Source: an uncultured Anaeromyxobacter sp. (GTDB lineage: Bacteria; Myxococcota; Myxococcia; Myxococcales; Anaeromyxobacteraceae). Taken from it: a stretch of 37,795 bases of DNA. Of the stretch, positions 10,468 through 37,411 are shown piece by piece. The DNA lies in assembly GCA_903855945.1 (NCBI GenBank), contig CAIOAK010000126.1, forward strand, positions 1-37,795, written 5' to 3'. The notes under the pieces were generated by a model. That model did not search any database and was not told the DNA's origin. It saw only the letters and a list, made by a program, of their open reading frames with translations. Every line of letters begins with the position of its first letter. Position 1 is the first letter of the stretch. The translations under genes and the position numbers were made by a program.

Positions 10468-11463
10468 ATGGACGGCGCCGTCGGGATGATCCTCGCCGCA
10501 GGGCTGGGCACGAGGCTCCGGCCCCTCACCGATCTGCTGCCCAAGCCCGCCGTTCCGGTGGCCGGCGTGCCGCTCGTCCAGCACGCCTTCGGACGCATGC
10601 GGGACGCCGGGATCCGGCGTGTGGTCGTGAACACGCACCACCTCGCCGGGGAGATGGCGCGGGTGGCCGCGGCCGCGGCGCAGGCGACCGGTCTCGAGCT
10701 CTCCCTCTCCCACGAGCCGGTCATCGCCGGGACGGGCGGTGCGCTCCGCGAGGCCCGCCGGTTCCTCTCCGGCGCGGAGGCCATCGTCCTCTGGAACGGG
10801 GACGTCCTCTTCGACATCGACCTCGGGGGCGTGGTGGAGGCGCACCGCAGGAGCGGCGCGCTGGCGACGATGGTGCTCGCCCCCATGCCGCCCGGGGCCG
10901 CGTTCGCCACCGTCGACGTGGACGGGGCCATGGTGGTCCGCCGCATCGCCGGACTCGGCCCCGGCGGCGACGGGCTCCTCCCGCTCCACTTCACCGGCGT
11001 GCACGTGCTCTCCCCGGCGATCCTGGAGCACGTCCCGGAGCGGCCGCACGCCTGCGACGTGAACCGTCAGGTCCACGTACCGCTCCTCCCGTCGGGACGG
11101 GTGCGGGGCGTGGTGACGGGCGGGTACTGGAACGACCTGGGCACGCCGGAGCGCTACCTCCGCGCCAACCTGGACCTCCTCGCGCGCCTCGGGGACCAGA
11201 TCCTCCGCGATGGCTCCGCGTCGGTGGATCCGGAGGCGCGGCTCGCGGGCCCGGCCATCATCGGCCGGGATGCGGTCGTCCTGGCGGGGGCGGCGATCGG
11301 TCCGGGGACCGTGCTGGGGGAGGGGAGCCGGGTGGGTCGAGGGGCGCAGGTCGAGAGCGCGGTGGTCTGGCCGGGTACCGTCGTCGCGCCGGGCGAGCGG
11401 GTCGTGCAGGCGGTGGCGGCCGGATCGTTGCGGGTCCCCGCGGGTCCCGCCGCGGGCGGGTGA
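10468..11463 (+). CDS. NDP-sugar nucleotidyltransferase (mannose-1-phosphate guanylyltransferase-like)
   Basis: A 331-residue enzyme. The N-terminal Rossmann-type domain (residues about 1-235) has the nucleotide-binding signature AAGLGTRLRPLT at 10-21 followed by PKPAVPVAG, a GTGGAL substrate loop near 88, and the metal-site Asp in WNGDVLFDID near 109. The C-terminal part (about 245-320) has hexapeptide-like repeats (AIIGRDAVVLAGAAIGPG...) forming a short left-handed beta helix. It probably couples a sugar-1-phosphate to GTP or another NTP for polysaccharide precursors; the exact sugar cannot be told. It is the first of a tight plus-strand run, with trmL 9 bases downstream. Confidence 0.83.
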   Translation: MDGAVGMILAAGLGTRLRPLTDLLPKPAVPVAGVPLVQHAFGRMRDAGIRRVVVNTHHLAGEMARVAAAAAQATGLELSLSHEPVIAGTGGALREARRFLSGAEAIVLWNGDVLFDIDLGGVVEAHRRSGALATMVLAPMPPGAAFATVDVDGAMVVRRIAGLGPGGDGLLPLHFTGVHVLSPAILEHVPERPHACDVNRQVHVPLLPSGRVRGVVTGGYWNDLGTPERYLRANLDLLARLGDQILRDGSASVDPEARLAGPAIIGRDAVVLAGAAIGPGTVLGEGSRVGRGAQVESAVVWPGTVVAPGERVVQAVAAGSLRVPAGPAAGG

Positions 11464-11472
11464 TCTCCCGGA

Positions 11473-11961: not shown

Positions 11962-13647
11962 ATGTCGTTCCTCCGCGAGCCAGGGGACCTCGCGCGGACT
12001 CCGCTCGCCGCGATCCTCCTCGAGGCCTGGAACCTCCGGGCCACCGGCCAGCTGATCGTCCGGCAGGCCGGGGGCGACTCGCGCCTCTGGTTCCGGGGCG
12101 GGATGGCGGTCGGGGTCCAGTCCTTCTCGGGTTTCCAGCCCCTCGGGCAGCTCCTGCTCGGGCGCGGCCTCATCGACATCGACGCGCTGGGGCGCTCCCT
12201 TGCCGAGGTGGCCGCCTCCGGTCGCAAGCAGGGCGAGGTGCTGGTCTCGATGGGCGCGGTCTCCCAGGAGGTGGTGGACCGGGCGCTCGAGGACCAGCAG
12301 GCGGGATACCTCTCCCTCATCGCCAAGCTGCCGGAGGGGGCATACCGGTTCGACATGGAGGCGCGGGTTCCGGAATGGGCTTCCCACGTGCTGGTGGCTC
12401 CGATGCGGGCGGTGGTGGACGCGCTCGCCACGCCGCAGGGGGAAGCCCTGTGCGCGTCGGCGCTGGCGATGGCGCAGGGACCGATCGCACTCCGTGCCGG
12501 ATACGCCGACCTGGCGGTGGTCTTCTCCTGGAACGCTGCCGAGGAGCAGCTCCTGCGCCGGCTCGAGACGGCTTCCACCGCGGAGGAGGTCCTGGCCACG
12601 CCCGGTCTCACCCGGGAGGACGCCCGGGCGGCGCTCGCCACCCTGCTGCTCCTCGGGCTGGCCGAGCCGGCCGGCGAGGTGGTGGACCTGGCGCACATCG
12701 CGCGAGCACCCGGCGCGCCGCCGGTGGCGCCAATCCAGAGCCCCGTTCCGGCGCCTCCTCCGGTCGAGCCCCCCCGGCGGAGCGACCCCGAGGTCTCCCG
12801 AGCGAGACGGCAGCGCCTGCTCGCCCGCGCCATGCAGAACATGGGGCTCGGACCGCTCCCCGGCGCTCCGGTCCGGGTCCCTCCCGCGCCCGCGCCGTCG
12901 GTGGCGCCCGCTCCGGCGCCGCGACCGCCCCGCCCTGCGGGGCCGCCCCCGGAGATCCTGCGCGCCCTGCAGGAGGCGCTGCCCCTCGCCCGGGATTCGG
13001 ACCTCTTCGCCCGGCTCGGGCTGGCGCGCGGGTCGAGCCAGGACGACGTGAAGGGGGCCTACCTTCTCCGCGTGAAGCAGTTCCACCCGGACCGGTTCGC
13101 CTCCCCGGAACTGGCCGACCTCCAGGCCGACCTCCGGGAGATCCTCTCCGGGCTCAACGAGGCCTACGGCGTCCTCTCCGATCGGGCGCGACGAACCGAC
13201 TACCTGGCCCGGACCGCGGCGGGAGGGCGCGCTCCGACCGAGGCCGCCGCAGCGTCAGCCCGGGCCGACTTCCAGAGGGCCGAGGCGGCGCGCAAGGCGG
13301 GCGACCACGCCCGGGCCCGCGTCTTCCTCGAGGCGGCGGTGCGCGCCGACCGGCGCCCCGACCTGCTCGTCGCGCTGGCGGCGGAGACGCTGGAGTCGGG
13401 GAAGCCGGAGGACCGGGAGCGGGCCAGGGCGCACCTGGACGAGGCGATGAAGGATCCGGCCTGCTCCGCGGCCTTCCTCGTCGCGGGGAAGATGGCCCGC
13501 GACGACGGCGAGCCGGACCGCGCCGAGAAGCTCTTCCGGGCGGCGCTCCGGGCCGATCCGCGCAACCCCGACGCCGCGGTGGCGATCCGTCAGCTCGAGG
13601 GGCAGCGCCGGATCCGCGCCGAGGCCCGGTCGGACGCGAAGAAGTGA
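11962..13647 (+). CDS. DUF4388 / J-domain / TPR-like multidomain protein
   Basis: A 561-residue cytoplasmic protein. Residues about 7-130 match the DUF4388 (PATAN-type) pattern common in Myxococcota (TPLAAILLEAW...ATGQLIVRQ...LWFRGG). A mostly helical middle follows to about 240. A Pro/Ala-rich linker (about 245-330) contains a basic patch. A J domain lies at about 350-415 with LGLARGSSQDDVKGAYLLRVKQFHPDRF; the HPD tripeptide that stimulates DnaK is intact. The C-terminus (about 430-555) has TPR-like repeats (ARAHLDEAM..., AEKLFRAALRADPRNPDA). It may recruit DnaK to a specific client or signalling complex; function is inferred from architecture only. Confidence 0.82.
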   Translation: MSFLREPGDLARTPLAAILLEAWNLRATGQLIVRQAGGDSRLWFRGGMAVGVQSFSGFQPLGQLLLGRGLIDIDALGRSLAEVAASGRKQGEVLVSMGAVSQEVVDRALEDQQAGYLSLIAKLPEGAYRFDMEARVPEWASHVLVAPMRAVVDALATPQGEALCASALAMAQGPIALRAGYADLAVVFSWNAAEEQLLRRLETASTAEEVLATPGLTREDARAALATLLLLGLAEPAGEVVDLAHIARAPGAPPVAPIQSPVPAPPPVEPPRRSDPEVSRARRQRLLARAMQNMGLGPLPGAPVRVPPAPAPSVAPAPAPRPPRPAGPPPEILRALQEALPLARDSDLFARLGLARGSSQDDVKGAYLLRVKQFHPDRFASPELADLQADLREILSGLNEAYGVLSDRARRTDYLARTAAGGRAPTEAAAASARADFQRAEAARKAGDHARARVFLEAAVRADRRPDLLVALAAETLESGKPEDRERARAHLDEAMKDPACSAAFLVAGKMARDDGEPDRAEKLFRAALRADPRNPDAAVAIRQLEGQRRIRAEARSDAKK

Positions 13648-13665
13648 CCCGGTCGCTCCCCTTGC

Positions 13666-13680
13666 GCCCGCGAGGCGGGC
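13666..13680. terminator. Hairpin between the J-domain gene and tsaD
   Basis: GCCCGC-GAG-GCGGGC is a perfect 6-bp stem 18 bases after the preceding stop. No T-run follows, so it may attenuate rather than terminate. A possible -10 (GGATAAA) lies just after it, before tsaD. Confidence 0.4.
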
Positions 13681-13723
13681 CGGTGGATAAAGCGGCCCCC
13701 GCGCGCCGAAGCGGATCCCTCCC

Positions 13724-16133: not shown

Positions 16134-16170
16134 AGGACGCGCGCACCGAAGTGTACTGATCGTGAAAAGC

Positions 16171-19188: not shown

Positions 19189-19679
19189 AGAAGGGCGGCA
19201 AGGGCGGGAAGGCCGACCCCGACGACGTCCAGGTGGTCGCCCGGAACAAGCGGGCGGTCTTCGACTACGACATCGAGGAGCGGGTCGAGGCGGGGCTCGT
19301 GCTCACCGGGAGCGAGGTGAAGTCGCTCCGCGAGAGCAACGTGGCGCTCTCCGACGCCTACGGGGCGCTGCGCGGCGACGACCTGTGGCTCTTCAACTGC
19401 CGCATCGGCGAGTACAAGGCGGCCGCCGCCTTCGGCCACGTGCCGCTGCGGGAGCGGCGGCTCCTCCTGCGCCGGGCCGAGATCGACAAGCTGCGCGGAA
19501 AGCTCGAGCAGCGGGGGTACACGCTGGTCGCCATGTCCCTCTACTTCCGGGCCGGATGGGCCAAGGTGGAGCTGGGGCTCGGGCGCGGGAAGACCCACGA
19601 GGACCGTCGCGATCACATCGCCGAGCGGGAGAGCCGCCGCGAGATCGACCGCGCCATGTCCCGCAAGCGCCGCGGGTAG
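19185..19679 (+). CDS. smpB: SsrA-binding protein SmpB
   Basis: A 164-residue partner of tmRNA in trans-translation, which rescues ribosomes stalled on broken mRNAs. The N-terminus is Lys/Gly-rich, then the OB-fold core begins with VVARNKRAVFDYDIEERVEAGLVLTGSEVKSLRE, as in the family. The basic C-terminal tail (GKTHEDRRDHIAERESRREI) inserts near the decoding centre. The GTG start overlaps the panC stop. No ssrA gene is visible here. Confidence 0.94.
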   Translation: MKKGGKGGKADPDDVQVVARNKRAVFDYDIEERVEAGLVLTGSEVKSLRESNVALSDAYGALRGDDLWLFNCRIGEYKAAAAFGHVPLRERRLLLRRAEIDKLRGKLEQRGYTLVAMSLYFRAGWAKVELGLGRGKTHEDRRDHIAERESRREIDRAMSRKRRG

Positions 19680-19680
19680 C

Positions 19681-19698
19681 GCGCCCCCGCGGGGGCGC
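19681..19698. terminator. Perfect palindrome between convergent smpB and DUF971 genes
   Basis: GCGCCCCCGCGGGGGCGC begins two bases after the smpB stop and ends five bases before the DUF971 stop, so it could end transcription from both sides. There is no T-run. Confidence 0.5.
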
Positions 19699-19703
19699 AC
19701 GGT

Positions 19704-27560: not shown

Positions 27561-27715
27561 GTCGACGGACCTCCTGTGCGGATTGCCCGGCGGTGGCCCA
27601 TGCAGGGCCGATACCGGCTCGTTGCACGATGGATCGGCGGTCTGACAGTCGCTGACCCGGGTCGGGGTCTGTGCGATACTGCCCCCTCACCCGTGGGGGG
27701 GGAGGTAGCGGGCAT

Positions 27716-29206
27716 TTGCAGACGGTCGTCGTCGCATTCTTCATCTCGATCACCGCCGTGCTGGTGCTCACGCCGCTCGTCCGGGGCGCCGCCATGCGCT
27801 TCGGGGCGCTCGATCACGCCCTCACGTCCCGGAAGATCCACGGCAGGCCCGTCCCCCGGCTGGGTGGGGTGGCCATCGTGGTCGCCTTCTTCCTCCCGAT
27901 CGTCGCCCTCTTCTTCTTCGACTCGGGGGTGGGGAGGCTCCTGTGGAGTCAGCCGCAGCGGGCGCTCGCGCTCATCCTCGGCGGCGTCGCCATCGCGATC
28001 CTCGGCATCTACGACGACCTGAAGGGAACCGGGGCCCGCACCAAGCTGGCGGTCCAGGTGCTGGTGGCCACCCTGATGTGGTGGGCCGGCTACCGGGCCG
28101 ACACCATCTCCACCCCGTTCGGGACCTTCGACCTGGGGCTCCTCGGCTTCCCGATCACCCTCCTCTGGATCGTGGGCGTGACGAACGCCGTCAACCTGAT
28201 CGACGGCCTCGACGGCCTCGCCACCGGGATCTCGCTCGCCGCGACGGCGACCATCTTCTGGGTGAGCCTGAACAACCAGCGCCCGCTCATGGCGCTCTTC
28301 ATGGCGTGCCTGGGCGGGGCGCTGCTCGGCTTCCTGCGGTACAACTTCCACCCTGCGTCGATCTTCATGGGGGACAGCGGGAGCCTCTTCGTGGGCTTCG
28401 TGCTGGCGTCCACCGCGCTCGAGACCCACGAGAAGTCCACCACGGCGGTGGCGCTGCTCGTGCCGATCGTGGCGCTCGGGCTGCCCATCGGCGACACGCT
28501 GCTCGCCATGGGGCGCAGGGCGCTGCGGGGGCAGCCGGTCTTCACCTCCGACCGGGGGCACATCCACCACCGGCTCATGGCCCGGGGGCTCTCCCACCGC
28601 GGGACCGTGCTCGCCCTCTACGGGATCGCGGTCGTGCTGGGCGGCGTGGCGGTGGCGCTCTACCACTCGGACGCCGAGCAGACCATCGCCTACGTCGGCG
28701 CACTCCTGGCCATCGCGGGGATGCTCCTCTCCACCGCGGGCTACGTCCGGTTCGACCAGACCCGTCAGCTCTTCACCGATCGGAAGAACAACCTGGCGAT
28801 GCGGTCGGTGGTCCGGGCGGCGGGCGAGGAGCTGCGGCGCGCCCAGAACCCCGAGGAGATCTGGGCCGTGGTGCTGGGGGTCTTCCGGGAGTTCCACGCG
28901 TGCTGCGCGTCCCTCACCGTCGTGGTCCGGAACGGGACGACGCGGACCTTCACGTTCTCCTGGGGGTTCGAGGAGGCGCCTCCGGACATGCTCCGGGTGC
29001 GGTTCAGCCTGCTCGGGGAGCGGCCCGACGAGGGGCGGCTCGAGTTCGGCTTCTCGGACGGCCGGCGCAACATGGACCGGGACACCGAGATCGCGATCGA
29101 GCTGCTCTGCGAGCACGTCCATGCAGCGGTCGAGCGCATCGCCGCCTGGGCCGACGAGGAGACGGCAGAGCCGCGGAAGCTCCGCCATCTCCGGCCGAAG
29201 GGATAG
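27716..29206 (+). CDS. WecA/TagO-type undecaprenyl-phosphate sugar-1-phosphate transferase with an extra C-terminal domain
   Basis: A 496-residue inner-membrane enzyme of glycosyltransferase family 4 (MraY/WecA). Residues about 1-345 contain roughly 11 membrane segments and the active-site motifs: GIYDDLKG near 98, NAVNLIDGLDGLATG near 156, FMGDSGSLFVGF near 220 and RGHIHHRL near 280, the last marking WecA/TagO-like rather than MraY enzymes. It should place a sugar-phosphate on undecaprenyl phosphate to start a surface polysaccharide. Residues about 355-490 are a soluble extra domain (FHACCASLTVVVRNG...) that may be GAF-like. The TTG at 27716 was chosen because GGAGG precedes it and the membrane helix follows at once; a GTG at 27671 is the alternative. 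Confidence 0.85.
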   Translation: MQTVVVAFFISITAVLVLTPLVRGAAMRFGALDHALTSRKIHGRPVPRLGGVAIVVAFFLPIVALFFFDSGVGRLLWSQPQRALALILGGVAIAILGIYDDLKGTGARTKLAVQVLVATLMWWAGYRADTISTPFGTFDLGLLGFPITLLWIVGVTNAVNLIDGLDGLATGISLAATATIFWVSLNNQRPLMALFMACLGGALLGFLRYNFHPASIFMGDSGSLFVGFVLASTALETHEKSTTAVALLVPIVALGLPIGDTLLAMGRRALRGQPVFTSDRGHIHHRLMARGLSHRGTVLALYGIAVVLGGVAVALYHSDAEQTIAYVGALLAIAGMLLSTAGYVRFDQTRQLFTDRKNNLAMRSVVRAAGEELRRAQNPEEIWAVVLGVFREFHACCASLTVVVRNGTTRTFTFSWGFEEAPPDMLRVRFSLLGERPDEGRLEFGFSDGRRNMDRDTEIAIELLCEHVHAAVERIAAWADEETAEPRKLRHLRPKG

Positions 29207-29213
29207 GCCCACC

Positions 29214-29483
29214 TTGCGCCAGGACATCATCCTCACGGAAATGAGGGACGGTACCGGGGTCCTGCTCGACCTGCGGACGAAGTTCTACTTCACCCTGAAC
29301 GCGACGGGAGTGGCGGTGTGGAAGCTGCTCGCGTCGGGGGAGGGAAGGGCGCCGCGCGAGATCGCGGAGCGGATCGCCAGGGACTTCGAGGCGCCCGACG
29401 TGGAGAAGGTGGAGGCGGACGTCACGACCCTCCTGGGGGAACTCGAGGACGAGGGTCTCCTGGCACGCCAGCCCCACGCTTGA
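29214..29483 (+). CDS. PqqD-family small protein (orphan)
   Basis: An 89-residue protein with the PqqD pattern: GVLLDLRTKFYFTLNATGVAVWKLLASGEG, then REIAERIARDFEAPDVEKVEADVTTLLGELEDEGLL. PqqD and related RRE domains bind precursor peptides in RiPP and PQQ pathways; others work as stand-alone adaptors in polysaccharide loci. No precursor, radical SAM or cyclase gene is nearby, and the neighbour is a WecA-type enzyme 7 bases upstream, so a role in surface-glycan export or biosynthesis is possible. The TTG start follows GAAGGGATAGG; an ATG at 29241 would cut off the first strand. Confidence 0.75.
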   Translation: MRQDIILTEMRDGTGVLLDLRTKFYFTLNATGVAVWKLLASGEGRAPREIAERIARDFEAPDVEKVEADVTTLLGELEDEGLLARQPHA

Positions 29484-29515
29484 CGCCACACTCCGGGTAG
29501 CCCAGGCTGTTCCCG

Positions 29516-34709: not shown

Positions 34710-35828
34710 TTAACCAACCCAGAAGAAGCGCGTCCAGAAGAAGAAGAGGATGGCCTGGGCGAAGGAGAAGGAGACGACCACCACCCGGTCCACCCAGGCC
34801 CGTCGCCCGAGGAGCCCGAGCGCCAGGAATACCGGGAAGGCCACCGACGCGAACCGCACCATGGAGAGGTAGGTTCCGGAGAGGAGCGCCGGCACGAGGG
34901 AGGCGAGCGCCCAGACGCCCAGCGCGCGGGTCTCCCTCCGGCGCAGCAGCCACGCCCCCGCGCCGGCCACGAGGAGGAAGGAGACGACCTCGAGCGGTCC
35001 GAGGCGCGGGTGGAACTCGCGCGGGGAGAGCAGGGTCTCCCAGGGCAGCGCCATCCGTCGCCCCCAGGCTTCCTGCGCGCGGAAGAGGGCGAGCCCGTCG
35101 CCCGTGAGCCACCGGAGCATCGCCACGTGGACCGCGAGCCCGGCGCCGGGGAGGGCCGACGCGACGAGGGGGCGCAGCCGCGGGCCTCCCCGCGTGAGCG
35201 CGATCCAGGCGAGCGGCACGGCGATCATCACGCCACCCGGCCGGGTGAGGGCGAGCAGGAGGCCGAGCATCCCGGCGAGCCAGGGTCTGCCGCCGAGCGC
35301 CGCCGAGAGGCTGCCCACCGAGAGGAGGAGGAAGAGCGCCTCGGGATAGGCCGACGAGAGGATGAACCCGAACGGGAAGAGGAGCGTGTAGAGCACCGTC
35401 CGGGACGCCGCCCCCTCGTCCCCCGACACCTCCCGGGCGATCCGCCAGAGGAGCCAGAGGCCGGCGAGCGCGGCCGCGTTCGAGACCAGGAGCGCGGCGA
35501 GGAACGCGCCCCCCTCGCCTCGCCCCGGGAGGAGCGCCGCCACGAGCCTCGTCGTCCACGGGTAGAGGGGGAAGAAGGCCACGTTGGACTGGACCGTGGA
35601 GAGGGGCCCACGCACCGAGTACCCGTGGGTCACGATATCGAGGTACCAGCTCGTGTCCCAGCGGCCGAAGACGTCCAGCCAGCGCCAGGGGACGAACTCC
35701 CAGCCCCGCGCCACGGCCGCGGGGACCGGGTAGCTGCCGCTCGGCGACATCTGGTCCCCGAACCAGGCCACCCCCACGAGGAGGAGGCGGGTCCAGAGGA
35801 AGGGCCAGAGGATGGCGCGGAGGAACAT
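34710..35828 (-). CDS. PIG-V-like integral membrane mannosyltransferase-family protein
   Basis: A 372-residue protein with about nine to ten membrane segments. The N-terminal [15 protein letters not shown] and a first large loop with [16 protein letters not shown] near residue 57 fit the PIG-V / GPI-mannosyltransferase-2-like group, where the Asp-containing loop is the likely polyprenyl-phosphate-sugar site; [18 protein letters not shown] and [22 protein letters not shown] follow the family order. The bacterial members' acceptor is unknown, presumably an envelope lipid or glycan. The ATG at 35828 has AAGGA 5 bases upstream. acnA follows 22 bases after the stop. Confidence 0.78.
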
Positions 35829-35879: not shown

Positions 35880-37368
35880 ATGGGCCCCTCGCAGGTCTAC
35901 CGGACGTCGCTCGCGCTCCTCACCGACTTCTACCAGCTCACCATGGCCGCCCAGCTGGGCTCGGACGGGAAGCCGCTCTTCGAGCCCGCCTTCCTCGACT
36001 GGCTCCCGGCCCAGCGGCTCGACGTGGACGTGGACGCCGTCCCCGAGGGGACGGTGGTCTTCCCGCACGAACCCCTGCTCCGGGTCCGGGGGCCCGTCGT
36101 CCCCTGCATGCTGCTCGAGACGCCGCTGCTCGCCATCGTCAACTTCCAGACCCTCATCGCCACCAAGGCGGCCCGCATCGTGCTCGCCGCGCGAGGCGCG
36201 CCGGTGGTGGACTTCGGGCTGCGCCGCGCCCAGGGGCTCGACGGCTCGCTCTCCGCCGCCCGCGCCGCCTACATCGGAGGCGTGGCCGGGACCTCCAACG
36301 TCCTCGCGGCGAAGCTGTACGGCATCCCGGTGAAGGGCACCCACGCCCACAGCTGGGTGATGCTCTTCGACGGAGAGCTGGACGCCTTCCGGGCCTACGC
36401 GAGGGCCATGCCGGCCAACACGGTGCTCCTCGTGGACACCTACGACACGCTGGAAGGGGTGCGCCACGCCATCACGGTGGGGAAGGAGCTGGCCCGCGAC
36501 GGCCACCGGCTGGCGGGGATCCGGCTCGACTCCGGCGACCTCGCCTGGCTCTCCCAGCAGGCGAGGGGGATGCTCGACGAGGCGGGGCTGCGCGACACCG
36601 CCATCCTCGCCTCCAACGAGCTGGACGAGCACGTCATCCAGGCGCTGCACGACCAGAAGGCGGCCATCGCCATCTGGGGGGTGGGGCGAGCCGGCGCTCG
36701 CCAAGACCACCATCCCCGGGGTCCAGCAGGTGCGTCGGTTCCGGCACGCGGACGGATTCCTGGCCGACGTCATCTTCGACGAGGACGCGGGGATCCCGGC
36801 CGAACCGGAGATGGTCGATCCGCTCGACCACACCCGGCGCCGGGTCATCCCCGAGGGGACGCCCTTCGAGGACCTGCTCGTCCCGGTCCTGCGAGGCGGG
36901 GCGCCGGTGTGGCAGGCGCCGCCGCTCGCCGAGGCGCGGGCTCGCTCGGCGGCGCAGCTCGCCCGATTCCACGCCGGGGTGAAGCGGCTCGTACACCCCC
37001 ACGCCTACCCGGTGGGGCTGGAGCGCGACTTCTGCCTCCCCCGCGGCGGACGCAACCCGGCGCTCATCGAGTCGCTCCTGTCCTCCGACGCGCTGGTCGT
37101 CGCCGGCCAGGCGGCGAGCCACTGCGTGAAGGCCACCGTGGAGGACCTGCTCCGGGAGATCCAGGCGCGGGATCCGCGCCTCGCGGGCCGCGTCTACCTG
37201 CTCGAGGACTGCATGTCGTCGGTGGCGGTACCGGACGGGAAGGGCGGATTCCTGTCCGATTTCACCCCCGAGGCGGAGGCGGCGCTGGGGCGGTTCGCCG
37301 AGGCGGGCATGAACGTGGTCCGGAGCACCACCCCCATCGGGGAGTGGCCCGGTATGGGGATGAAATAG
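35880..37368 (+). pseudogene. Decayed nicotinate phosphoribosyltransferase joined to a nicotinamidase tail
   Basis: Three lesions are visible. (1) Near 35946-35960 the N-terminal [11 protein letters not shown] jumps to [13 protein letters not shown], losing about 70 residues normally present, in frame. (2) Near 36684-36687 ...IWGVG is followed, in a different frame, by [19 protein letters not shown], losing about 40-45 residues and shifting frame. (3) Near 37025-37035 [11 protein letters not shown], close to the normal C-terminus, continues as [16 protein letters not shown] and [17 protein letters not shown], the C-terminal third of a nicotinamidase (isochorismatase fold). Retained parts are otherwise well conserved ([29 protein letters not shown]). 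It looks like a former pncB-pncA pair for NAD salvage; neither enzyme can be intact. A sequencing or assembly fault is the main alternative. Confidence 0.8.
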
Positions 37369-37411
37369 GGCGCGCCCTTCCGCGTAGGGAATGGACACGA
37401 GGAGAGTGACG

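Follow-up and report, generated by a model that had tools for sequence, protein, structure and literature searches.

The pncB-pncA pair of Preiss-Handler NAD salvage is probably in early non-functionalisation in the draft genome studied here (G000), by deletion at short direct repeats. The window, that is the whole stretch of 37,795 bp that was analysed, is one complete contig (C126) of this draft. A formerly intact, overlapping pair would be in the course of being lost: five deletions, each joining direct repeats of 3–6 bp, would have removed 1,051 bp in a short evolutionary time, presumably through RecA-independent replication slippage or end-joining at microhomologies. The loss would be tolerated because the genes for de novo synthesis, nadA, nadB and nadC, are kept.

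Remnants and junctions of the pncB-pncA pair

Breakpoints were placed by alignment to intact orthologues from the same genus, G001:C182:3824-6360 and G002:C422. Both relatives carry an intact pncB (nicotinate phosphoribosyltransferase, 494 aa) at the equivalent place, and in G001, where the locus is 72% GC, its 3' end overlaps (GTGA) a pncA-like gene of 352 aa, with which it is thus paired in the genome. The genes that flank the broken locus in the window also flank the intact pair in the relatives. The features of the window locus are as follows.

34710–35828, minus strand: left flanking gene, 372 aa, intact and syntenic (tblastn to G001 and G003); presumably PigV-like, from the look of the sequence alone
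35880–35951, plus strand: 5' remnant of pncB, codons 1–24, near-identical to the intact pncB start in G001 and G002
35944–35951, plus strand: junction D1, 165 bp (55 codons) gone in frame; TGGCCG in both parental flanks
35952–36681, plus strand: central remnant of pncB, reading frame intact, DNA identity 86–87% to G001 and G002
36679–36686, plus strand: junction D2a (from sequence comparison), 23 bp gone, frame-shifting; TGGGG common to the flanks
36687–36698, plus strand: pncB island of 12 bp left between junctions D2a and D2b, CGAGCCGGCGCT, derived from the GEPAL codons
36696–36698, plus strand: junction D2b, 81 bp (27 codons) gone; GCT common to the flanks
36699–37025, plus strand: 3' remnant of pncB, NAPRTase_C domain
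37022–37025, plus strand: junction D3, 248 bp gone (3' end of pncB and 5' part of pncA); AGCG common
37022–37046, plus strand: island of ~25 bp from the pncA N-terminus (RDFCLP), aligned to G002 202-226
37044–37049, plus strand: junction D4, ~534 bp of pncA gone; 4–6 bp common (CGGCGG is the best register)
37044–37368, plus strand: 3' remnant of the pncA-like gene, residues 245–352 of 352, native stop kept, 85% protein identity
37391–37744, plus strand: right flanking gene, intact (the contig ends at 37795); we take it to be zinc-ribbon/PspC-like by look

Relative to G001 the missing blocks measure 165, 23, 81, 248 and ~534 bp, and those that the G002 contig spans have the same length there (165; 104 for D2a and D2b together; 248). 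The initial annotation had counted three deletions, which the alignments to G001 and G002 raise to five. The in-frame block that it described inside pncB is D1, but its single frame-shifting block is in fact two, D2a and D2b, on either side of the 12 bp island; similarly, the 3' end of pncB does lead to the C-terminal third of a nicotinamidase, but through two junctions, D3 and D4, with the ~25 bp island between them.

HMM scans identified NAPRTase_N and NAPRTase domains in the frame at 35880-36695, and NAPRTase_C followed by a weak isochorismatase C-terminus at 36691-37365; the TIGR01513 match for the central remnant covers 35973-36689. With 165 and 104 bp gone and the frame shifted, the pncB product lacks the GVGTRL...GVYKL region as well as 55 N-terminal residues, and from the pncA remnant the middle and the greater part of the N-terminal Asp motif are missing. 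Judged from sequence, both products should be inactive. It is very improbable that the shortened open frames at 35880-37409 (509 codons, no stop) and 36730-37368 (212 codons, a pncB-pncA fusion) are instead selected new proteins. Three of the five deletions have lengths divisible by three, and the fusion can be read through to the native pncA stop, but open frames come cheaply in 72% GC DNA (the window also has many unrelated antisense frames that are open), the frame past D2a is shifted into non-native sequence, and conserved enzyme regions are gone. The same compact arrangement with a conserved open frame, which had been named beforehand as evidence against decay, was sought among the relatives and found in none.

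Aligning the relatives to locate junctions and direct repeats, as the initial annotation had advised, gave shared words at all five, of 4–6 bp at four and 3 bp at the fifth. Their sum is ~22 bp, where breakpoints drawn at random in intact G001 sequence give ~4.6 bp on average (0 of 20,000 simulations reached 22 bp); the parental sequence is here approximated by a relative at 15% divergence and the true microhomologies may be longer. Two local causes were rejected. The stretch had been called GC-rich and repetitive, of which the former stands; the longest exact direct repeat reported in it is 14 nt, and repetitive DNA was set aside. Strong single-strand folding was discarded likewise, the first 477 bp of the intact gene being no more stable than shuffles (z 0.98).

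Constraint on the remnants and the age of the probable loss

Compared over 373 codons of the remnants, the window shares ~85% identity with G001 and G002 in both DNA and protein, and the comparison of G001 with G002 is alike. Branch-specific synonymous/nonsynonymous changes number 41/30 for the window, 33/28 for G001 and 39/23 for G002. Among 180 residues that are invariant in eight intact proteins, one is changed in the window, and leaving out G001, G002 or G005 likewise gives one changed invariant residue for each. The neutral share of the window branch is estimated at ~0.02 (one-sided 95% limit 0.24); the ratio of nonsynonymous to synonymous change on the remnant is thus not raised, although as much as about a quarter of the branch may have been neutral. 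Together with the single altered invariant residue, this suggests that constraint on the gene was normal until very recent times, in line with the earlier description of the remnants as freshly conserved.

A remnant in this unrelaxed state means either that the loss is very recent or that the draft assembly is at fault. Deletions have clearly outrun substitutions, which is not usual when decay is slow; the pattern speaks for deletions in rapid succession, one complex event or an artefact. That one complex event made all five deletions at once, for example by repeated forward template switching, is an improbable variant of the preferred explanation that does not exclude it: five microhomology junctions within 1.1 kb and no substitution load are in its favour, but the data would also allow a series of deletions confined to the final quarter of the branch. 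Slightly less probable again is the specific form in which a single repair or replication event produced all five in one burst of microhomology-guided forward template switching; if true, this would be a natural bacterial multi-jump rearrangement that inactivated an operon in one step.

The evidence that weighs most against recent decay is the surprisingly high ratio of five deletions to essentially no excess of point substitutions, and the nature of the draft (4.07 Mb in 213 contigs, 99.1% complete), in which the locus lies 427 bp from the end of its contig. These same facts favour an artefact: the contig end is GC-rich and may be thinly covered, the deletions would have arisen when the library was amplified or the reads assembled, and the living cell would carry intact genes. 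Polymerases jumping in vitro also use short homologies. We regard such an artefact as unlikely, though deserving of serious weight. Set against it are the ordinary folding of the first 477 bp and the non-repetitive character of the locus, and three further lines of evidence from the assembly and from related genomes.

Losses elsewhere in the genome and the family

All pncB and pncA matches in G000 are to the remnants, so the missing blocks do not lie on other contigs. This search for further copies, also proposed by the initial annotation, found no second pncB or pncA of this type in the genome. The genes of de novo synthesis, nadA, nadB and nadC, are intact and all score above their curated cut-offs in G000 (C50, C144 and C117). 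The suggestion of recent serial deletion fits well with these results and with the existence of intact orthologues.

As a control, syntenic G001 contigs were aligned with the window and with two contigs taken as a sample, C15 and C28, and the window was aligned to G003 as well, covering ~100 kb of syntenic DNA as a sample of the genome. Of the 65 G001 genes tested, the pncB-pncA pair stood out clearly as well conserved yet split between frames, with large internal gaps; gene prediction in this control was crude, and most of its 21 flags look like over-extended or antisense frames. That no other well-conserved gene clearly shows clustered large internal deletions argues against a genome-wide assembly fault; a local one near this contig end would fit these results too.

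The third line of evidence is the fate of the locus in relatives. In G003, a species of the same genus whose assembly is 98% complete, a separate single deletion has removed the entire pair; it joins the region upstream of pncB to the last pncA codons at a common CCCGG. In four family members (G004, G008, G013 and G018; three of the four at least 95% complete) pncB was not found and nadA, nadB and nadC are kept. The locus is therefore dispensable and has been lost repeatedly, and the state of the window locus suggests that this lineage depends on NAD made from aspartate. Since the locus has been lost independently more than once in this genus and family, and its neighbours here are intact, an artefact is the less likely reading.

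G000 is shorter than its relatives at many places, chiefly through whole genes absent between intact neighbours. Genes carried by both G001 and G003 are absent from the window at 11452-11465 (a PP2C-like phosphatase, named by look), 13647-13721 (~290 aa), 16136-16167 (147 aa, similar to its neighbour) and 19667-19703 (an HD-domain-like gene, again named by look). The last has a homologue at the syntenic place in the outgroup G005 (44% identity), so its absence is probably a loss. On gene content, these whole-gene absences may be signs of lineage-wide compaction, and a genome that sheds genes elsewhere favours real loss at pncB-pncA. At 27650-29513 the three genomes G000, G001 and G003 share no gene order, and G001 and G003 differ in the genes they carry there, marking a variable spot. 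On another contig (G000:C15:145783-146100, L136), ~216 bp remain of a gene of 313 aa in G001, the rest of it and the gene upstream being gone; this appears to be an older-looking second remnant, possibly of an HNH-type gene.

Protein identity and comparison with known systems

The window remnants of pncB match the TIGR01513 type of PncB and the Pfam NAPRTase domains, and the intact G001 protein aligns over nearly its full length to a solved relative of this type (2f7f/4mzy; E 9e-100 to 2f7f). The window copy differs from the type in lacking 55 and ~35 residues and in its shifted frame. The partner protein resembles PncA (nicotinamidase/pyrazinamidase, isochorismatase superfamily) weakly, through a C-terminal part with an SHCVKATV motif. 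Even the intact 352-aa relative falls below the curated PncA family cut-offs (Pfam 20 against 27 bits, NCBIfam 31.5 against 174) and is hence named nicotinamidase-like only; a search of PDB sequences returned no solved-structure relative for it. It would represent a long divergent branch of putative nicotinamidases.

Across the order, relatives of the pncA-like protein occur near NAPRTase-type genes. In G026:C30, G033:C6, G038:C26 and G024:C24, a second, more distant relative (40–43% identity) lies at most ~250 bp from a NAPRTase-like match. This proximity in large-genome relatives supports a nicotinamidase-type role for the long branch. In another family of the same order, the pncB match at G025:C53:3675-5505 is in several separate pieces and frames and may be another broken copy.

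We found no published work specific to this locus. On the favoured reading of recent decay, the locus would capture a dispensable operon for vitamin salvage just as its decay sets in, beside sister species that have it intact or are cleanly without it; if confirmed, its five junctions would allow deletion to be measured against point mutation in a high-GC free-living lineage. Young bacterial pseudogenes can form by deletion between short direct repeats, and bacterial genomes have a deletional bias. The pncB-pncA locus is like them in the short direct repeats at its junctions, in the loss of a dispensable function and in its intact neighbouring genes, but differs in having five deletions with almost no point-mutation decay. 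The kind of event is well known, and only its freshness and the number of deletions set it apart.
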